From: a virus
Reading direction: 5' to 3' (one strand)
Virus record (IMG/VR): IMGVR_UViG_3300030116_005269
Location: 29,352 to 65,717 of that record
DNA: 36,366 nucleotides
A program made the translations under genes and the position numbers. Under the pieces are notes generated by a model. It saw only the letters and a program-made list of their open reading frames with translations, did not search any database and was not told the DNA's origin. Position 1 is the stretch's first letter; each line of letters opens with the position of its first letter. Positions 15,661 to 32,520 of this stretch are shown in pieces.

Positions 15661-16203
15661 TTATATGTCTTGGTTTTTAAGTTTTTCCCTTAAGGCGTCC
15701 ATAGCCTCTTTTTGCATTTGTATTTTTAAAATTCTATCACTTGGTTGTCTTTTGCATAATTTACAAATTTTTTGTCTTCCGTCTTTATATTTTTGTGATC
15801 GGGAAAAAGATTTTATGTCAAGTGTTTCACCACATTTTCTACATTGCTTAGTATCAGGATTCCACTCTTTATCTTTTGCATATTTTTGTGCTTCTAAAAC
15901 ACCTAACCAAATAGCCGGATCTTCTTTCATCCAAGTCATAAATTTTTCTAAACCTATTGGTAGATCTTCATACAAAGCTCTTACGGTAAGTTTGTATTTA
16001 CCATCTCTTATGCGATCAATTATTGTAATAGCTACTTTATGATCGATTGCAGAGATAGGCTCAAATCCTGCTTGTTCTCTTAATTGTCTAACTCTTTCGT
16101 GTGAACACTCCCACTCTCTAGCCCAATCACTCAAAGGCTTGTGAGGGTCAGCTTTAAATAATTCATAAGCTTTTTCTACATTAGGTACTTTTCTACTTGG
16201 CAT
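15661..16203 (-). CDS. Helix-turn-helix protein with C-terminal CxxC zinc motif
   Basis: 180 residues. The N-terminus has a helix-turn-helix-like segment (LSDWAREWECSHERVRQLREQAG, residues 24-46). The C-terminal part has C121-RKC124 and C147-KLC150 with F-S-R-x-x-x-x-K-DG between them, a four-cysteine zinc motif seen in phage DNA-binding and HNH-associated proteins; no HNH residues are visible. It overlaps the WhiB gene by 11 bp and sits inside the head-tail connector cluster, so it would be expressed late. A transcriptional regulator working with WhiB is a reasonable inference; a packaging-related DNA-binding protein is the main alternative. Confidence 0.7.
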   Translation of the reverse strand: MPSRKVPNVEKAYELFKADPHKPLSDWAREWECSHERVRQLREQAGFEPISAIDHKVAITIIDRIRDGKYKLTVRALYEDLPIGLEKFMTWMKEDPAIWLGVLEAQKYAKDKEWNPDTKQCRKCGETLDIKSFSRSQKYKDGRQKICKLCKRQPSDRILKIQMQKEAMDALREKLKNQDI

Positions 16204-16483
16204 CTTTTCTCTTTCTCGTAAGCCCTCTTTCTTTTCTTATTTTTCGACGCTCACGCTCTGATAGTCCTCCCCATATACCAAACTTTTCATTGTTAACTAT
16301 TGAATATTCTAAACAATGTTCTTGTGCTTTACAGGAATTACATAATTCTTTTGCTTTTCGAGTGCTAGCACCCCTGTCTGGAAAAAATAGATCAGGATCT
16401 TCGCCTATGCAATTTGCATCTACCTGCCACCATAATTCTTGTAGTCTTAGTAGATTGCCTAGAGCTTCCTGTTTATAGTCCAC
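16193..16483 (-). CDS. whiB: WhiB-family iron-sulfur transcription factor
   Basis: 96 residues with the WhiB signature: cysteines 25, 48, 51 and 57 (C-x22-C-x2-C-x5-C) that ligate a 4Fe-4S cluster, then GIWGG (69-73) and a basic C-terminal tail (RKIRKERGLTRKRKDAK) for DNA contact. WhiB proteins are actinobacterial and bind the principal sigma factor; phage copies such as mycobacteriophage TM4 WhiBTM4 repress host whiB2. The start is GTG 16483 with GAGGTG upstream. The gene is within the late structural operon rather than an early region, which is unusual and suggests late reprogramming of host or phage promoters. This is the strongest host marker in the window. Confidence 0.95.
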   Translation of the reverse strand: MDYKQEALGNLLRLQELWWQVDANCIGEDPDLFFPDRGASTRKAKELCNSCKAQEHCLEYSIVNNEKFGIWGGLSERERRKIRKERGLTRKRKDAK

Positions 16484-20483: not shown

Positions 20484-20717
20484 ATGAAAGTAGATGTCCT
20501 TTTGATTTCGACTTTACATACAAGTTCCGGTAGCTTTCAGCTGACTATCTTGTCGGATGGCACAGGTACGGCAGAAATCTTCGGTGAAACCGTGCAATTA
20601 AAACGCAACGGTAATAAAATAGATATATCAGGTAAATTCAACGCACGCGACTTTAAGCGTGGCGCTGAGGAAAGAGATGAAATAGTATCATGGCTGAAAG
20701 AGGAAATGAAGCTATAA
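20484..20717 (+). CDS. Hypothetical protein, first gene of plus-strand cassette
   Basis: 77 residues, beta-rich in the first half (LLISTLHTSSGSFQLTILSDG, then AEIFGETVQLKRNGNKIDIS) and ending with a charged helix (RGAEERDEIVSWLKEEMKL). It has no ribosome site but an extended -10 box 6 nt before the ATG, indicating a leaderless mRNA. It lies on the plus strand between two minus-strand structural genes and overlaps the next gene by 28 bp. Independent promoter and orientation suggest expression at a different time from the structural genes. Function unknown. Confidence 0.7.
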   Translation: MKVDVLLISTLHTSSGSFQLTILSDGTGTAEIFGETVQLKRNGNKIDISGKFNARDFKRGAEERDEIVSWLKEEMKL

Positions 20718-24797: not shown

Positions 24798-25868
24798 CTA
24801 ATTATCGTGAACTTTGTTTAATACGATTATATAAGCTGTTGTGTCAACAAGACTTTTTTGCTGTATAGCGGTAAGCTCGCTGTCTTTTGTGACTAGATAT
24901 TTAGATTTAGCAGTAATTACTTGTTCAAGATCAAAATTCATAGTGTTCTCTACAAGTCTAAATAAATCTTGTAAATTGAAATCAGGATAGTTTCTTGTAA
25001 TTATTGCTACTTTAGAATTTAAAGAACAACTTGTGCTTAGACTTAGTATTGTTCTAGCTAAATAATTTTCAATATCTACTCTACCCATATTGTACTCTGC
25101 GTCCAAAGAATTAAATATAATAAAGTCTGCTTCGCCCATGCTTGCAGGGAATCTATCGTTTATAAAATCAAATTTTTCTACTTTCTTAGCGCTTGGGATC
25201 GGATCAAGATCATAAGACTTACAATCAAAACCCATAGCTGTTGCAACATCTTTTGTGACTTGGAACTTATCACTCATATCAATAAGTTTTGTTTCGCTAG
25301 GAACTCCACCATAAAAATAAAGTAAATTACCTATAAGTTGTGGGTGTGTTTTGTTTTCCTCGTCATATCCATACAATTCATTTTTTTTACCAAAAGACCA
25401 AAATGTTGTTGGCTTGTAATTTAAACCTAGATCTTCTAAATCAACATTGTCGCTTTCTATAATTGTTTCTAAAACTTTTTGTTTTTTAATTATTGACCTT
25501 AGTGCTTTTACAGACAAGCCCTCGTCAAGAGCTTTATCTAAATATTCTTTTTGCAATCCTGCGTCTAATGATGCAACCTCCGAGTGATGTGTCCAAGACA
25601 ATTCGGGATTTCGTCTTTCTAAAGGTACTTTATTTGCAACATAAGAAGCCTTACTAAAAGTATTGTAAGGTATTTCCATATTCAAAGCTTGTGCTGCGAG
25701 TTCACCATATTTGCGATCGCCAAAGTTCCACCAATCACCAAGCCACCACATAATATTTTGAGTTGCTTGCATTAGGTTTTGTCCTATTTCCAACCATTGC
25801 TCATAAGTAAGATCTTCTGCAAATTGGTAATAGTTGCTATCACGCTTAGTTTCTACTATCTCTCCCAT
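24798..25868 (-). CDS. DNA-binding/ParB-like N-terminus fused to degenerate methyltransferase fold
   Basis: 356 residues. The N-terminal half (20-130) has WWLGDWWNFGDRKYGE, VPLERRNPELSWTHHSEVA and LSVKALRSIIKK, a helical domain common in phage and actinobacterial proteins and probably DNA-binding. The C-terminal half follows a Rossmann-type methyltransferase plan (KLIDMSDKFQVTKDVATAMGF, SYDLDPIP, ADFIIFNSLDAEYN), but the expected Gly-rich SAM motif (DPxxGxG-like) reads DMSDKF and the catalytic DPPY-like tetrapeptide reads NSLD. It may therefore be a catalytically dead relative acting as a DNA-binding or packaging factor. Its ATG has a TAAAAT -10 box 6 nt upstream, so the mRNA may be leaderless. 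It starts the packaging block. Confidence 0.7.
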   Translation of the reverse strand: MGEIVETKRDSNYYQFAEDLTYEQWLEIGQNLMQATQNIMWWLGDWWNFGDRKYGELAAQALNMEIPYNTFSKASYVANKVPLERRNPELSWTHHSEVASLDAGLQKEYLDKALDEGLSVKALRSIIKKQKVLETIIESDNVDLEDLGLNYKPTTFWSFGKKNELYGYDEENKTHPQLIGNLLYFYGGVPSETKLIDMSDKFQVTKDVATAMGFDCKSYDLDPIPSAKKVEKFDFINDRFPASMGEADFIIFNSLDAEYNMGRVDIENYLARTILSLSTSCSLNSKVAIITRNYPDFNLQDLFRLVENTMNFDLEQVITAKSKYLVTKDSELTAIQQKSLVDTTAYIIVLNKVHDN

Positions 25869-25880: not shown

Positions 25881-25919
25881 CTATATTAAATGTTTAGTGT
25901 GACAAAAAAAGAAAATTCC

Positions 25920-26631: not shown

Positions 26632-26829
26632 CTACTTCTCGTCAAATTTTTTGCAAATACCTAAGTATAAATTTACAAGATCGTCTGCGTCTTGTACTAA
26701 GTTAATACCTTTTATTCTCATATAATTAAATTGTTTTAAAACAATTTCTTTAAGATCACCATCGCTAATAAGTTCGTCAATAGCGTCTTCTCTTTTTGTT
26801 CCCGGAGGAAAATTTGGTATCTCAGCCAT
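26632..26829 (-). CDS. Small hypothetical protein
   Basis: 65 residues starting MAEIPNFPPGTKREDAID and predicted mainly helical (DDLVNLYLGICKKF at the end). It is the last of three coupled small genes: its ATG shares a base with the stop of the previous gene. A single Cys is present and no known motif. Function unknown. Confidence 0.65.
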   Translation of the reverse strand: MAEIPNFPPGTKREDAIDELISDGDLKEIVLKQFNYMRIKGINLVQDADDLVNLYLGICKKFDEK

Positions 26830-27014
26830 TAAATTGTCCCTTCTGCTTTTATTCCCGTCAAAGCTTCGTATTCGTCATTTTCTACAGGTGAGATAGTTGG
26901 CGGTATATAATCTTTTTCAGTTAAAAACATATCCCACAACTTTTGCAAAGCGTCATCCGAGTTCTTCGCTGTGACTTGAAAAGTTATTTTATAGTCAATT
27001 AACGGCTCACTCAT
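26829..27014 (-). CDS. Small hypothetical protein, beta-helix type
   Basis: 61 residues. The segment YKITFQVTAKNSDDALQKLWDMF follows the same plan as the next gene upstream (VSFETTEDYILEADNETEAIKK): a strand, an A-(D/N)-(N/S) turn, then an amphipathic helix with (E/D)-A-x-x-K. They are probably diverged duplicates. It overlaps its upstream neighbour by 8 bp. Function unknown. Confidence 0.65.
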   Translation of the reverse strand: MSEPLIDYKITFQVTAKNSDDALQKLWDMFLTEKDYIPPTISPVENDEYEALTGIKAEGTI

Positions 27015-27204
27015 TTGTACCTTCTATCTCTGTGTACTTCTTAACAATATCACATTGATAGTTAATTTTAGCCTGCCACAACAAATCTTTTTGAGAACTT
27101 TGTTTAAAATCAAATATTTCTTGTACTTTTTTTATTGCTTCCGTTTCATTATCAGCTTCAAGTATGTAGTCCTCTGTCGTTTCAAAGCTAACCATTATTT
27201 TCAT
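27007..27204 (-). CDS. Small hypothetical protein, beta-helix type
   Basis: 65 residues, first gene of the three-gene set. It has a strand followed by a helix (LEADNETEAIKKVQEIFDF) of the kind seen in many small phage proteins. Unlike nearby leaderless genes it has an AGGGAGG ribosome site about 6 nt before the ATG, implying a leader that covers the pyrimidine-rich repeat region. Function unknown. Confidence 0.7.
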   Translation of the reverse strand: MKIMVSFETTEDYILEADNETEAIKKVQEIFDFKQSSQKDLLWQAKINYQCDIVKKYTEIEGTNE

Positions 27205-27220
27205 TTACTGCCTCCCTGAT

Positions 27221-27320
27221 TCTATTCTACTCTATTCTATTATACTCTATTCTACTCTTATCTACTCTACTCTAGCGCGTTATTGTCACAAATTGTCACG
27301 ATTTGTCACATGTGACATAC
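27221..27320. repeat. 100-bp array with 10-bp periodicity: CT-rich units then three TTGTCAC operator-like copies
   Basis: From 27221 the sequence falls into 10-mers: TCTATTCTAC, TCTATTCTAT, TATACTCTAT, TCTACTCTTA, TCTACTCTAC, TCTAGCGCGT. Then TATTGTCACA, AATTGTCACG, ATTTGTCACA and TGTGACATAC, giving three direct copies of (A/T)TTGTCAC spaced one helical turn apart and a closing inverted copy; GTCACATGTGAC (27305-27316) is a perfect palindrome. It lies between a minus-strand gene set (start 27204) and a plus-strand gene (start 27437). Most likely a cluster of protein-binding sites all on one DNA face. Confidence 0.75.
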
Positions 27321-27436
27321 AAAAATAAATAGTCAATATTTATGGGATTTTAAAAGATTGTAGTCGGCGACAAGTTTACAAAATGTTAACAATTAAAGGC
27401 TGTTAATGTTTTGCAAAACTGCTATATTTGTTAGCT

Positions 27437-27580
27437 ATGGATTATTTTTTAGGATTTATATTTGGTTTCTTTGTTAAAGAAACATTAGCGTATCTCAAGC
27501 AACTAAGCGATTGGGATTACGATAACCGCCGTGGTTATGAATTTGATTTAGATCCTCTTACTGAGGACGATTTACCTTAG
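27437..27580 (+). CDS. 47-residue small membrane-anchored protein
   Basis: ATG 27437 to TAG 27580. The N-terminus (MDYFLGFIFGFFVKETLAYL) is one hydrophobic helix, followed by an acidic tail (YEFDLDPLTEDDLP). An extended -10 box TGCTATATT ends 8 nt before the ATG and no ribosome site is seen. The 3' end overlaps the cytosine methyltransferase gene convergently by 23 bp. A holin or an inhibitor peptide is conceivable from the topology but unsupported. Confidence 0.55.
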   Translation: MDYFLGFIFGFFVKETLAYLKQLSDWDYDNRRGYEFDLDPLTEDDLP

Positions 27581-29165
27581 TAATCTCAGGGTCAAAGATC
27601 AAAGTATCTTCTATCAATGACCTTATAATTAAACGACCCGTCAATTCCATAAACTGTGGAACTACACCATTACCTAAAGCTTTAAGTCTATCAATGTCGT
27701 TGTCTTGTCTTTCAGCAACTCTGTTTATTTGATCTTCCCAAGAATTATCAACACCCCAAGAGTTTATTTGTCCAAGTTCAGCCAACCATCTGGAAATCCC
27801 ATGAGTCTGGTCACCCATTCCGGATTCAGCCTTTGACCAATCAATTCTGGATTCCGTTCCCCAACATCCATCTCTAAAGTAGAGCCATGCGACCCACTCG
27901 CTACTGACGGAGCTTTCTTGTTCACGGGCTTGCTTGCTTGACTTGCCCTCGGTGTTGAAAACCTTTCCCTCACTTGTACTTTGTCCGCTAGATTGAGGGA
28001 TCGATCCTCGCCCCCGTTCTTTGCTATCCGGCGTCCCTTCTCGTTCAGTTTGAGATTGAGATGTTCGTTGTCCTGTGTCGAGGGTGTCGGCCACATTTCC
28101 ACTTCCTCTTTGGTTTTCCACTCTATCACTTCTATCGTCGTCAATTCTTTGTCGAACTTCACTTCCGTCAAGTGTGGCTTGATCTTGCTCCAATCCTCTA
28201 TGCTCGGGTAATTGAATCCTTTGTCGTCCTTCCTGTACCAATGATCGACCGTCGTTTTCTTTATTCCGGTTTTCTTGGCTAGTTCCGTCGCCCCTATTTG
28301 ACTCCTTATGTATTCCGTCCACTCCTTTTGTGTTGGTAGTAGTGGTCTTTCCACCATCTCGTGATCTTGGTAATACTCCATCAAGCTCGGGTCTTTCTCT
28401 ATCATTTCCATCCAAACTTGATCGCTCAATGTTCTTTGTACTCTGTGTCCCGACGATCTCCTCGTTTTCCCCTGCATAAGTTTCGTTGCGTGTTTCAACG
28501 AGTCGTCTTTGTTGTCCATTGTTGTAGGAGTCAACCAAATCTTTGGATTTTCTCGTAAGTTCCCAGTGCCTTTTCTTTTGCTCTTCCTCTCGGGATCTCC
28601 ACGATACAACGCTCTCTCCAAAGCGTCCCCTGACCTCGGCTCTAAGTAATCCATAGTGTTTGGGGTCTCCCACGATTCCAACTCCCACCCATCTTTGTCT
28701 TTTGTGTCTTGCTCCAACGAATTTTGCTGATATAAGTTGCCATTCAAATCGATAATACCGCATTTCGGCCACACCTTTGATGACACGGTTAATGGCTTCT
28801 CCGTTGCTTGCTCGGAGGATGTTTGGGACATTTTCCAAGATAAAGATTGGTGGTCGTATCTCATCAATAAATCTTTCGACTTCATCCCATAACCATCTTT
28901 CATCTTTTACTCCTTTTTGATTTCCTGCAACGCTTACCGGTTGACACGGAAACCCTGCTGTCAAAATATCTACTTTTGATAGATACTTTGTATTTACTTT
29001 TTCTATATCTTTATTTAAAACTAAAGTATTTGGAAAGTTCTTTTCTAGTATTTTACAACAAAAATCGTCATTTTCTACCGCCCAAGCAACTTCATCAATA
29101 AGACCTGATCGTAGTAAACCAAGCTCTATACCACCAATACCTGAAAATAAACTACCTAGTTTCAA
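27558..29165 (-). CDS. dcm: DNA (cytosine-5-)-methyltransferase containing an overprinted gene
   Basis: 535 residues. Motif I is LFSGIGGIELG, the catalytic Cys74 sits in GFPCQP, ENV is at 111-113, and motif VIII corresponds to HKRQRWVGVG near 154-163. Motif IX/X-like sequence (DRLKALGNGVVP) is near 493-503. It transfers a methyl group from SAM to cytosine C5. The long middle (about 170-440), where a target-recognition domain belongs, is a polar, low-complexity stretch rich in R, E, D, G, S and Q. This stretch coincides with a second gene in the +1 frame (27764-28903). Start TTG 29165 overlaps the MetK gene by 14 bp. Last gene of the methylation operon. Whether the protein is active with this odd central part is open. 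Confidence 0.9.
   Translation of the reverse strand: MKLGSLFSGIGGIELGLLRSGLIDEVAWAVENDDFCCKILEKNFPNTLVLNKDIEKVNTKYLSKVDILTAGFPCQPVSVAGNQKGVKDERWLWDEVERFIDEIRPPIFILENVPNILRASNGEAINRVIKGVAEMRYYRFEWQLISAKFVGARHKRQRWVGVGIVGDPKHYGLLRAEVRGRFGESVVSWRSREEEQKKRHWELTRKSKDLVDSYNNGQQRRLVETRNETYAGENEEIVGTQSTKNIERSSLDGNDRERPELDGVLPRSRDGGKTTTTNTKGVDGIHKESNRGDGTSQENRNKENDGRSLVQEGRQRIQLPEHRGLEQDQATLDGSEVRQRIDDDRSDRVENQRGSGNVADTLDTGQRTSQSQTEREGTPDSKERGRGSIPQSSGQSTSEGKVFNTEGKSSKQAREQESSVSSEWVAWLYFRDGCWGTESRIDWSKAESGMGDQTHGISRWLAELGQINSWGVDNSWEDQINRVAERQDNDIDRLKALGNGVVPQFMELTGRLIIRSLIEDTLIFDPEITKVNRPQ
27764..28903 (-). CDS. Embedded (overprinted) gene: HTH protein with W-x-TP repeats, methyltransferase-associated
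   Basis: 379 codons open in the +1 frame relative to the cytosine methyltransferase, covering its codons 88-467. ATG 28903 has its own AAGGAG ribosome site 6 nt upstream. The product reads like a real protein: SLSWKMSQTS then KVWPKCGIIDLNGNLY (residues 20-58), four W/F-x-TP motifs (WETPNTMD, WLTPTTMDN, WPTPSTQDN, FSTPRAS), a helix-turn-helix (GATELAKKTGIKKTTVDHWY, 204-223) followed by PSIEDW, and a C-terminal LNPEWVTRLMGFPDGW. I recall these motifs in phage proteins encoded beside or annotated as cytosine methyltransferases, often with LNP.WVEWLMGFP.GW endings. It may provide target recognition or partner the methyltransferase. Confidence 0.8.
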   Translation of the reverse strand: MKDGYGMKSKDLLMRYDHQSLSWKMSQTSSEQATEKPLTVSSKVWPKCGIIDLNGNLYQQNSLEQDTKDKDGWELESWETPNTMDYLEPRSGDALERALYRGDPERKSKRKGTGNLRENPKIWLTPTTMDNKDDSLKHATKLMQGKTRRSSGHRVQRTLSDQVWMEMIEKDPSLMEYYQDHEMVERPLLPTQKEWTEYIRSQIGATELAKKTGIKKTTVDHWYRKDDKGFNYPSIEDWSKIKPHLTEVKFDKELTTIEVIEWKTKEEVEMWPTPSTQDNEHLNLKLNEKGRRIAKNGGEDRSLNLADKVQVRERFSTPRASQASKPVNKKAPSVASGSHGSTLEMDVGERNPELIGQRLNPEWVTRLMGFPDGWLNLDK

Positions 29166-30219
29166 TACTTTCCCAACTCATTTCAGGATTTGAATAATGT
29201 GATAATTCTATTTGTGAATAGTCTTGATTGTATAAATCTAATCTTTCAATAATACCTCTTGGTGTCATATCAAATTTGCTAACAAAATCCTCTAATACTT
29301 TTTGACTCACATGAAGTTGATCAAACCCACCTACCTGTATTTCAAGTGGTTTATCTAAGCCAATACCATAAGCTAATCGAACATAGCATTTATCAGCCAA
29401 ACCATTGGCTACTACATTTTTAGCTAAGTGTCGTGCAGCATAAGCACCTGATCGGTCAACTTTACTAGGGTCTTTTCCTGAGTATGCGCCTCCGCCTACG
29501 GCTACGCTTGGACCATAGGCGTCAGCGACAATCTTGCGACCTGTCAAACCGGTATCGGCTGACGGTCCGCCTTTCGTGAATGAGCCACTTGGATTAAGAT
29601 ATAAAACATTTAAGTTAGTTTGCAATGTGTTTTCTACTATGGTGTGTATTAAAGAATATATAGACTCTTTATCCCATTGCTTATCATGTTGCACCGAAAC
29701 AATAACTTGGTAAGTGTTTCCAAGATTAGTCACTTGTACTTTTCCGTCTAGATCAAGATCATCTCTATATTTTTGTAAAGCATATACTTGTTCAGCAATC
29801 TTTAGAGTTTTGTAAAAATTATTAGGTAAATATAAATCATTTGTATTTTCTGCATACCCAATCATTATTCCCTGATCTCCTGCACCAAAATCTTTTTTGC
29901 TAACAACCGCTTTATTTATCTCGTTTGATTGTTTTGTAATTACATTTTGTATTTCTGCTTTTTTTACATCAAACTCGTCATTGTTTGTTTTTATATATTT
30001 AGATAAAACTTCTCTTACAGTAGATACAACTTTTGATGGCATCATTGACATTTCACCACCAACTACTACAAGCCCTTTATCTTTAGTTCCGGTTATAAAA
30101 GTTTCTACGGCTACTTTTGTTTCTTTGTTTTCTTTTAACGCAATGTTGAGTAAAGCGTCGCTAATTTTATCGGCGATCTTATCGGGGTGTCCCGGAGTCA
30201 CCATTTCATCAGTCATCAT
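29152..30219 (-). CDS. metK: S-adenosylmethionine synthetase
   Basis: 355 residues. Family signatures are plain: GHPDKIADKISDALL, GAGDQGIMIGYA (the GAGDQG ATP-binding motif), GGPSADTGLTGRKIVADAYG and GGGAYSGKDPSKVDRSGAY (the phosphate-binding loop), then an ARHLAKNVVANGLADKC segment. It makes SAM from ATP and methionine. Slightly shorter than bacterial MetK (about 380-400) but no key motif is missing. I choose ATG 30219 because AAAGGAG lies upstream; the frame is open to TTG 30240. It overlaps methyltransferase genes on both sides, so its product would feed them directly. Phage-encoded MetK is unusual. Confidence 0.95.
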   Translation of the reverse strand: MMTDEMVTPGHPDKIADKISDALLNIALKENKETKVAVETFITGTKDKGLVVVGGEMSMMPSKVVSTVREVLSKYIKTNNDEFDVKKAEIQNVITKQSNEINKAVVSKKDFGAGDQGIMIGYAENTNDLYLPNNFYKTLKIAEQVYALQKYRDDLDLDGKVQVTNLGNTYQVIVSVQHDKQWDKESIYSLIHTIVENTLQTNLNVLYLNPSGSFTKGGPSADTGLTGRKIVADAYGPSVAVGGGAYSGKDPSKVDRSGAYAARHLAKNVVANGLADKCYVRLAYGIGLDKPLEIQVGGFDQLHVSQKVLEDFVSKFDMTPRGIIERLDLYNQDYSQIELSHYSNPEMSWESIETR

Positions 30220-30946
30220 ATTCAATTCGCTCCTTTGCAATATGAAAATATTTCAATTCTTTTTCGATACCTATAAATTTCCTACCGGTATTGACACAAG
30301 CAACTCCCGTTGATCCTGATCCCATTGTGAAATCAAGTACCGTGTCCCCTTCAAGCGTATAGGTTTCTATAAGATATTCTAACAAAAGTACAGGTTTTTG
30401 TGTTGGGTGATAAGATTTTTGATTTTTCTTTTGATTATCCCTAGCAAAATAAAGCATATTTGTTTTAGTTTTGTGTGTGTAAGTCACATATTTGCGATTA
30501 CCTTTATTGTCTAAGTTATTTCTAGCTGTTGCAAAGCTTTCACCACCAGATATAGTGCGTACCCTAGTTATAGGTTTTGGTAGTTTTTCACCCTGCCAAT
30601 CATATTCGGGTTGATCTTTATAAAAAATAGATATGTTTTCATTTTTTCTTAATGGTTGTTTTTTACTAAAGGCTTGTCCTGTTCCTTTGTCTTTTTCCCA
30701 TATCCAATCGTATCTATATTCGTCTATGTTGGATAATCGTAAAAAACTACTAAAAGGCTCTAAACCAAATAAAGCTATTGGTGTATTGTCTTTTCTTATT
30801 CTTTTTAGTTGTTCCCACATTATTTCTTTAGGAACTTGATTATCCCAATTATATTCTGTAGTCCCGTATGGAAGATCTGTTAAAACTAAATCAATAGATT
30901 CGTCATCAATTTGTTGCATTATCTCAATGCAGTCGCCTAGATACAA
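30209..30946 (-). CDS. DNA methyltransferase, beta-type motif order (N4-cytosine or N6-adenine)
   Basis: 245 residues. Catalytic motif IV (TDLPYG, residues 23-28) precedes the SAM motif I (LDFTMGSGSTGVA, near 204-216), with a HPTQKPVLLLEYLIE segment between them that is typical of the beta group. DLPYG is a permitted variant of DPPY. Such enzymes methylate adenine N6 or cytosine N4. Start is TTG 30946; the normal beginning K-L-Y-L-G-D-C fits here, with no ATG available. It sits 8 bp after the previous gene and overlaps MetK by 11-32 bp depending on its start. Sequence specificity cannot be read. Confidence 0.9.
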   Translation of the reverse strand: MYLGDCIEIMQQIDDESIDLVLTDLPYGTTEYNWDNQVPKEIMWEQLKRIRKDNTPIALFGLEPFSSFLRLSNIDEYRYDWIWEKDKGTGQAFSKKQPLRKNENISIFYKDQPEYDWQGEKLPKPITRVRTISGGESFATARNNLDNKGNRKYVTYTHKTKTNMLYFARDNQKKNQKSYHPTQKPVLLLEYLIETYTLEGDTVLDFTMGSGSTGVACVNTGRKFIGIEKELKYFHIAKERIEYDD

Positions 30947-30954
30947 TTTAGTAT

Positions 30955-31536
30955 CTATTTCACTAACCTTTCCATAATGATCTGTTTCGGCAGGAAATCT
31001 CTACAATAATAAGAACTAGAAAAAGTAGGACTTCCCATACCTTTACCGTCTTTTATGTATTCAATTCGCTTATCAAACATTAAAAGCTCTAAATCTATGT
31101 TCTCGAACAAATGTTTGGGTGCTGCGTCATTTAGCCAAGTGTTTGACATAAGTAATGCAAAAGGTTTGTTAAAACTTAAAGCTCTTTCAAAAATTTGTCT
31201 TTTTCCGGTAAAAGGTGGATTAGATACAATAATATCCCACCTATCCGGCTCGTATTCATAAAAGTCTTGATCTTGCGATATGTGTGAACTAACAACTTCA
31301 TTTTGCTGTCCTATAAGTTTTACAAACCAACTATGTGATAAATCAAAAGGACACCAAACTGTAGCGTCTTTTGGAATATATTTTAAAATTGGCCTTACAC
31401 CATATTCCGGTGTGTAGCATTCGTCGTTCTTACCTTTAGAGTAGAGAACTTTATTACTATCGATTCCCCAAGTGCTATTCGTCAAAACTATAATTCCTAC
31501 ATTCAAATAATTCGATACCCGGCTTGTCTTTTTCAA
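30955..31536 (-). CDS. NPPF methyltransferase-like protein, degenerate SAM motif
   Basis: 193 residues. Motif IV-like SNPPFT (105-110) marks an adenine-N6 methyltransferase relative. The SAM-binding region reads ATVWCPFDLSHSWFVK, with no glycine loop where DPFxGxG is expected. This resembles small phage NPPF proteins that start with DECYTPEYGV (38-46). The open frame starts at 31536, overlapping the upstream gene by 62 bp. TTG 31485 (overlap 11 bp) may be the true start. Could be an active enzyme with an unusual SAM pocket or a partner/decoy. Confidence 0.75.
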   Translation of the reverse strand: MKKTSRVSNYLNVGIIVLTNSTWGIDSNKVLYSKGKNDECYTPEYGVRPILKYIPKDATVWCPFDLSHSWFVKLIGQQNEVVSSHISQDQDFYEYEPDRWDIIVSNPPFTGKRQIFERALSFNKPFALLMSNTWLNDAAPKHLFENIDLELLMFDKRIEYIKDGKGMGSPTFSSSYYCRDFLPKQIIMERLVK

Positions 31537-32011
31537 AAATTACAAAAATACACGGAAACCCAAACCACTCCGGAACAAAGAAGTACGCTATACCGGTAAG
31601 GCCAAAGTTTGCTTCTTTCACCATTTGCATACGCTTTCTAGTTATATTGTGTCCTGCCATTATGTAAGCAAAGCCTTTTTGGGACACTTCAATCGATTTT
31701 TCAAAAACTCTATTTAATTTAGAAAATGGTGGATTTGAAACACACCAATCAACTTCTTGATCATAAGTAAAAAAATTAGTTTCGTATGGTGGGCGGATCT
31801 CCGTAAAGTCTTTGTCAACAAAATCAGGGTAATTATCATACCAAACGCCTTTTCCATAAAAAGGGTCTAAAACTTTGTCGCCGGCGACAAAAGGTACACT
31901 ATTGATACAATTTATTGCTAATTGCTTTGGCGTGTAAATAATATCATTTTTTCGTTCTTTAGAGCTTTGATAACTCTTGGCGACTACACCTCGTTCCCCC
32001 ATACATCCCAT
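31475..32011 (-). CDS. NPPF adenine-N6 methyltransferase-like protein
   Basis: 178 residues. Motif I is VLDPFYGKGVW (48-58) and motif IV is SNPPFS (92-97), both in the order of gamma-like enzymes. An IIYTPKQLAINCINS segment before motif I is the usual substrate-side strand. It is short, with no evident target-recognition domain, so it may depend on a partner, perhaps its neighbour at 30955 which also has NPPF. Overlaps the MT-A70 gene by 28 bp. DNA N6-adenine methylation is the likely role. Confidence 0.8.
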   Translation of the reverse strand: MGCMGERGVVAKSYQSSKERKNDIIYTPKQLAINCINSVPFVAGDKVLDPFYGKGVWYDNYPDFVDKDFTEIRPPYETNFFTYDQEVDWCVSNPPFSKLNRVFEKSIEVSQKGFAYIMAGHNITRKRMQMVKEANFGLTGIAYFFVPEWFGFPCIFVIFEKDKPGIELFECRNYSFDE

Positions 32012-32520
32012 CCTTCCGTTTTTTCTCGTGCGAACAATTCAATTCTAGGAAGATCACCACATAAGTCAACGATATGGGATTTAATAATATCGGGCTTTTT
32101 ACTATGTCGTTCTCTTGGTGCAACTACTAATTCTCTTACACCTTTGGAAACTCGACTAGGTTTTCCTTTTGTTGCTAATAAACACAATTCGGGATTACCG
32201 CGTGTCCAATAACCAAGCCCTGTAAAAAATCCCTCGCTTTTCATATTTTCCTTAGCCCAAACAAAACCCATTGTTTTATAAGTAAAACCCCAACTCTCGA
32301 TAACTTCAAACGCTATTGGTAAAGAGTGATTCACTACCCATAGAAATAGAACACAATGAGTATCTGCAATATCGTTTACCTTTAATGATTTTATCCAATC
32401 AATACTTTGAGTTTCATAATGTTGGTTTGGATTTCGTCCCTCTCCCTTTTTGCTGAAGTTTTTAAAGCTCCATGGAGGATCGGCATAGATAATATTATAT
32501 TTCTTATCGGGGAACTCCAT
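31984..32520 (-). CDS. MT-A70 family adenine-N6 methyltransferase
   Basis: 178 residues. It has YADPPWSFKNFS (catalytic DPPW 14-17), a middle CVLFLWVVNHSLPIAFEVIESWGF, YWTRGNPELCLLATKG, and ERHSKKPDIIKSHIVDLCG near the end, the standard MT-A70 order. Bacterial and phage members methylate DNA adenine N6; eukaryotic relatives act on RNA. It is first in the operon and has a promoter with -10 TATACT 6 nt from the ATG, so the mRNA is leaderless. Confidence 0.92.
   Translation of the reverse strand: MEFPDKKYNIIYADPPWSFKNFSKKGEGRNPNQHYETQSIDWIKSLKVNDIADTHCVLFLWVVNHSLPIAFEVIESWGFTYKTMGFVWAKENMKSEGFFTGLGYWTRGNPELCLLATKGKPSRVSKGVRELVVAPRERHSKKPDIIKSHIVDLCGDLPRIELFAREKTEGWDVWGNEV

Follow-up and report, generated by a model that had tools for sequence, protein, structure and literature searches.

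A putative iteron-type replication origin with a tandem pentamer array, located far from the initiator gene in an environmental phage lineage

Known origins and the element under study

In phage lambda, the part of gene O that encodes the N-terminal DNA-binding region is followed by repeated initiator sites and then by an unwinding tract (PMC7466680). SPP1 possesses oriL within gene 38 and the intergenic oriR in the late region, both composed of direct repeats and an AT-rich DUE and both bound by gp38; for oriR a role in the theta-to-sigma switch was proposed (PMC6316719). In Bacillus subtilis, DnaD recognises pairs of 5'-TnnT-3' (DRE) (PMC10201434). Here, we describe an element on the minus strand at 27220-27319 of a window of 36,366 nucleotides, i.e. 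bases 29,352-65,717 of the 85,160-bp virus record IMGVR_UViG_3300030116_005269 (G000). Judged from sequence comparison it is very probably the iteron-type theta origin of this marine phage, with a pentamer array as its unwinding or loading module.

The order of repeated sites and putative unwinding tract is that of the lambda origin, but lambda has iterons of about 18 bp and shows no clear pentamer phasing in its AT-rich tract, and the present element is intergenic and far from the initiator gene. With the SPP1 origins it shares direct repeats and an AT-rich tract, and oriR is the closest functional precedent for an origin placed between genes and apart from that of the initiator; SPP1 has in-gene and intergenic origins, whereas here only an intergenic copy was found. 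The oriC of B. subtilis also has a dedicated short-repeat single-stranded DNA module beside double-stranded DNA boxes; it differs in its period (3 nt, against 5 in our array), in the opposite polarity relative to the boxes and in its DnaA boxes, which are absent here. Finally, in-gene origins are proposed for phages Shimadzu, Lagaffe, nd4 and epsilon15: in their homologous initiator genes NAGAN pentamers come after repeats on the same strand. There the module is coding (RVDKTRVDK, REEKRRE), while here it is non-coding. The openly accessible papers searched contained no earlier description of the pentamer module.

Anatomy of the element

Read on the minus strand, the element starts with the perfect 14-bp palindrome TGTCACATGTGACA (27304-27317), continues with GTGACA copies 10 bp apart and a CGCG step, and ends with 11 pentamers; TATGTCACATGTGACAAATCGTGACAATTTGTGACAATAACGCGC is followed by the array and then by TCAGGGAGGCAGTAAATG, the start of a 65-aa ORF (27007-27204, minus strand). 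On the plus strand the putative iteron appears as three TTGTCAC half-sites (minus: GTGACAA) at 27283-27289, 27293-27299 and 27303-27309, each 10 bp after the preceding one. The third is the left half of the palindrome, which is completed by an inverted half-site at 27312-27317. This arrangement of spaced copies and an inverted one had already been recognised in the initial annotation and is present as described. A further TTGTCAC, formerly placed at 25897-25903, is actually a lone copy on the minus strand at 25899-25905. Upstream, a weakly conserved TTGTCGCCG stretch (27365-27373) aligns with CTTGTCGGCAAG-like palindromes of relatives and is possibly a further site.

The short G+C step GCGCG (27275-27279), represented by CGCCC or CGCTC in most relatives, separates the sites from the array (27220-27274, minus strand). 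Its 11 units are TAGAG, TAGAG, TAGAT, AAGAG, TAGAA, TAGAG, TATAA, TAGAA, TAGAG, TAGAA and TAGAA, with the consensus [TA]AGA[N] and one degenerate member (TATAA); the plus strand reads (TnnTC)n. Earlier it was taken for a series of CT-rich 10-mers. The repetition is real but its basic period is 5 bp and not 10 (identity 0.78 at lag 5, 0.82 at lag 10 and 0.39 at lag 3). The array has 28% G+C, and the 60-bp stretch from 27221 is within the least stable 8% of the window. It runs up to the Shine-Dalgarno sequence AGGGAGG (27211-27217, minus strand, read from the sequence) of the small ORF at 27007-27204, which has no Pfam or PHROG match and is located 3' of the element in class A and class B relatives. 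TAG stops occur in every frame of this intergenic array, which shows that selection here acts on the nucleic acid rather than on a peptide such as the one encoded by in-gene arrays.

TTGTCAC occurs 12 times in the window against 4.6 expected, a number reached in none of 100 shuffles, and when the window was shuffled 1000 times with dinucleotides preserved, even two copies at 10-bp spacing never arose. The 10-bp site pair and the palindrome are each present a single time in the whole 85,160-bp record, the next best match to the palindrome having two mismatches. No second site pair or array of this kind exists elsewhere in this record, which is possibly incomplete.

The element lies between a Dcm-type methyltransferase gene and the small-ORF/packaging cluster as well as between terS and terL. 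Several DNA methyltransferase genes occur at 27558-32520, around a gene (29152-30240, minus strand) that by eye resembles S-adenosylmethionine synthetase and matched the unnamed PHROG_1569. Another small ORF of 65 aa (26632-26829, minus strand) shows about 90% identity in most relatives, at least as much as terL, and a conserved 356-aa protein is encoded upstream of terL (24798-25868, minus strand); neither has a PHROG or Pfam match. The latter possibly combines, by eye, a ParB-like HTH with a methyltransferase-like part. A WhiB gene (16193-16483, minus strand; PF02467, E=2e-24) suggests an actinobacterial host, such as marine Actinomarinales; a search for terL in prokaryote genomes gave no match.

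Conservation among relatives

A terL search yielded 80 related viral contigs, and in more than 20 of them the element is found at the matching place, 2.3-3.3 kb upstream of terL and 5' of the same small ORF. In most relatives the palindrome precedes GTGAC copies spaced by 9-10 bp and the sequence GTGAC-N-GTCACGC(C/T)C; among class A relatives it is the best conserved site. The version with three copies is confined to the nearest relatives (L125, L127), and L128 has two. The initial annotation had suggested that sites on one face of the helix would suit cooperative binding of a regulator, possibly the phage's own, and had proposed a search of related genomes for TTGTCAC clusters; both the 9-10 bp spacing and the palindrome are indeed kept there, which supports helically phased sites for the cooperative binding of some phage protein. 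Pairwise identity per 15 bp among 15 sequences averages 0.81-0.93 across 27230-27319, compared with 0.38-0.66 upstream and 0.49-0.70 across most of the small ORF. A DNA similarity search of the element against annotated phages gave no match. A scan of viral contigs for TTGTCAC pairs was not used; many of the matches listed are presumably due to chance.

The AGA core of the pentamers is nearly invariant. In 17 sequences with 9-12 units each (178 units), A stands at positions 2 and 4 in 178/178 each, G at position 3 in 175 and either T or A at position 1, and position 5 is free. A second group (L142, L151, L153-155) combines these pentamers with very different sites, TCGGAATTCC among them. In a third group (L161-L180, terL 61-64%) all 20 members carry TAACGCGTTA repeats and 7-11 NAGAN units located 121-140 bp before terL (e.g., L566:1485-1529), with AGA in 188 of 188 units; the initiator of these phages was not found in their fragments. 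The iterons are exchanged between phage groups (TGTCAC, TCGGAATTCC, TAACGCGTTA, GTCC) while the AGA core stays constant, and the CT-rich units, secondary for the first annotation, are, in the genomes compared, the widely conserved half of the element.

Initiator genes and in-gene arrays

A match of the site pattern outside the clade (L336) fell in a replication-initiator-like gene; taken alone it may be a chance match, but it directed attention to the initiator genes. The phage's own homologue (74,701-75,429 of G000, minus strand) is located outside the window, about 18 kb from the element. It matches PHROG_9474 'replication initiation protein' (E=3e-38), its N-terminal part matching such PHROG families, and aligns at 42% identity, with 49% of the query covered, to the initiator of Paenibacillus phage Harrison; those of Shimadzu, Lagaffe, nd4 and epsilon15 are also similar. 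The structure predicted for a close homologue was too weak for comparing folds (pLDDT 69), and Foldseek gave no significant PDB match. In the initiator genes of Shimadzu (e.g., GAGTAGACAAGACTAGAGTAGATAAGACTAGAGATATAAAGG), Lagaffe, nd4 and epsilon15 the repeats and then the NAGAN pentamers follow directly after the N-terminal domain, i.e. the two-part design has the same strand and order as in our element. A pattern of five units was detected in four of six genomes with homologous initiators, and there only in the initiator gene on the coding strand. Harrison and Mae-JY24 lack a NAGAN array; at the matching position Harrison combines GTCAC repeats with another pentamer (CCTAA), and the array of Mae-JY24 has a 6-bp unit.

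Full initiators were found for G001 (66%) and G013 (54%) of class A, for G002 (47%) of class B and for the distant cousin G017 (terL 57%). An attempt to derive initiator specificity from class A versus class B sequences was dropped because full initiators were too few (three A, one B). The initiator gene of G017 contains, after the HDWxxY motif, an insert with GTCC/GGAC repeats and nine NAGAN units (GAGAG, GAGAA, GAGAG, GAGAG, GAGAT, GAGAG, TAGAG, GAGAA, GAGAT), followed by TATATTAG. The initiators of the window's clade are without an insert of this type, and in those genomes the array is intergenic only. The order, with repeats 5' and purine pentamers 3', is shared by all of these phages.

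A scan of IMG/VR for six in-phase WAGAN units gave at least 119 loci, of which 113 were analysed. Among the matches listed, 85 of the 113 arrays are inside same-strand ORFs of at least 100 aa (at aa 129 in the median), and every one of the 85 ORFs contains an R-[VLIE]-[ED]-K motif of the type encoded by the array. From 20 random non-redundant array ORFs taken from these matches, 17 match replication-initiation, primosomal, DnaD-like or replisome-organizer PHROGs, and the remaining three match only families of unknown function. Scans with permuted cores were intended as negative controls, but AAG-core arrays (10/10 sampled ORFs) and GAA-core arrays (6/10) also fall mostly in initiators; hence AGA is not the sole form of the core and these scans provide no clean negative control. 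Repeated hexamers prevail 5' over 3' of the arrays for AGA (41 vs 6, n=66), AAG (31 vs 9) and GAA (29 vs 4). The AAG core encodes KLSKVKLSKDK in initiator genes of L371, L413, L405 and others; the GAA core encodes NRTEQNRTE and VKRSEEKRSE in those of L485, L559 and others. Further intergenic WAGAN arrays are located beside repeated sites (TCTCCAG; TTTGCTTAGCAT/GCGTTTGCTACA) at L233:1233, L250:3557, L229:64-92, L237:809-837 and L252:6346, and they are possibly relocated origins of unrelated phages.

In the experimentally studied initiator-gene origins of lambda (gene O) and TP901-1 (rep) no clear pentamer array is visible, which means that the array is common but not universal.

Alternative explanations

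The position 5' of a Shine-Dalgarno sequence also fits a promoter or leader and counts against the origin reading. As an operator or promoter, the element would let a phage regulator on the phased TTGTCAC sites control the leftward small-ORF/thioredoxin/packaging cluster, with the pentamers as overlapping -10-like hexamers (TAGAAT, TAGAGT). Its location 5' of Shine-Dalgarno and start codon in class A and class B relatives, TTGACT upstream in several relatives and the palindromic and direct half-sites typical of operators agree with this. Nevertheless, we regard it as unlikely: the palindrome and the 10-bp pair are unique in the 85-kb record and form no regulon, AAGAG and GAGAG units preserve the array yet break the TANNNT hexamer, the element is upstream of terL instead in class C relatives, and the same module is also found inside initiator coding regions of other phages, where promoting a small ORF that follows would be senseless. 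The element is probably not a transcription operator, but it may have an additional operator or promoter role. A binder encoded by the phage itself, considered possible in the initial annotation, is retained, but its type is probably wrong, since the comparison favours a replication initiator over a regulator such as WhiB, the HTH protein at 15661 or the protein at 20690.

The element could also be a second, late origin or a fork-pausing site, another origin being located elsewhere in the genome. The SPP1 pair of oriL and late-region oriR provides a model, and our element adjoins packaging genes too. This is improbable, as the (possibly incomplete) record contains no other site pair or array and the initiator gene has none.

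It is very doubtful that the array acts as an RNA leader in which (UAGAG)n of a 5' UTR is bound by a TRAP-like ring protein that blocks the Shine-Dalgarno sequence. The target of TRAP consists of 11 (G/U)AG triplets with 2-nt spacers, and the 11 units with a 5-nt period directly 5' of the Shine-Dalgarno sequence resemble it. A TRAP-like RNA target was rejected: no TrpBP (PF02081) gene was found in the record, the unit number varies (7-12), A never varies at position 4, T/A or G/A/T instead of G/U stand at position 1, and arrays within initiator genes are not 5' UTRs. Equally remote is a packaging (pac) or partition site, for which speak the location between terS and terL and the occurrence of short-repeat arrays in pac and parS sites, but across unrelated phages the module tracks replication initiators and not terminases.

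Proposed function and evolution

An iteron-type theta origin, the preferred reading, is consistent with a helically phased repeat cluster that would represent the initiator sites, an adjacent AT-rich and easily melted tract, an initiator gene of matching family in the same genome, and the same module in initiator genes of relatives. An origin that lies 18 kb from its initiator gene is unusual, though SPP1 oriR provides a precedent. We propose that the initiator, through its N-terminal domain, contacts the GTGAC/TGTCAC iterons along a single face of the duplex and puts strain on the adjacent DNA, whereupon the AT-rich pentamer array would open. The initiator or the helicase loader would hold one array strand in steps of 5 nt, so that the replicative helicase could be loaded. 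Ancestrally the origin would have followed directly on the N-terminal domain within the initiator gene, and it would have moved about 18 kb away in this lineage; we infer this direction, from gene to intergenic region, from sequence comparison.

The plus strand of the array resembles the DRE of B. subtilis in that its two variable bases coincide exactly with nn; invariant A at unit positions 2 and 4 means TnnT every 5 nt. Several PHROG families matched by these initiators are named DnaD-like. DnaD-type recognition of TnnT could explain the array, but we favour it rather less than its opposite since any NAGAN array gives TnnT and since it does not extend to AAG- or GAA-core arrays, where TnnT is not fixed. 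Membership in the DnaA-trio (BUS) class was ruled out by the period of 5 (lag 3 versus lag 5), the polarity and the TTGTCAC boxes. A DnaT footprint as the cause of the 5-nt unit was likewise rejected, because DnaT binds about 2 nt per subunit (PMC4132743).

A broader proposal, which we judge about evenly poised, is that a 5-nt tandem code (NAGAN/TnnTC, with AAG and GAA cores elsewhere) is a general property of phage origins of the initiator-gene type, and that its single strand is read one unit at a time by the initiator or a DnaD-like loader. Such a code would be the phage counterpart of DnaA-trios and DRE, separable from the iterons and movable with them out of the gene.

Iterons with a purine pentamer array provide a signature that would locate the origins of environmental phages, whether these lie in the initiator gene or elsewhere. 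The non-coding copy in the window's clade separates the constraint on DNA from that on protein, which in-gene origins cannot do. It makes a fixed-step single-stranded DNA code for helicase loading, as bacterial oriC uses, testable in phages. Within a single phage lineage the origin appears to have moved with its architecture retained.
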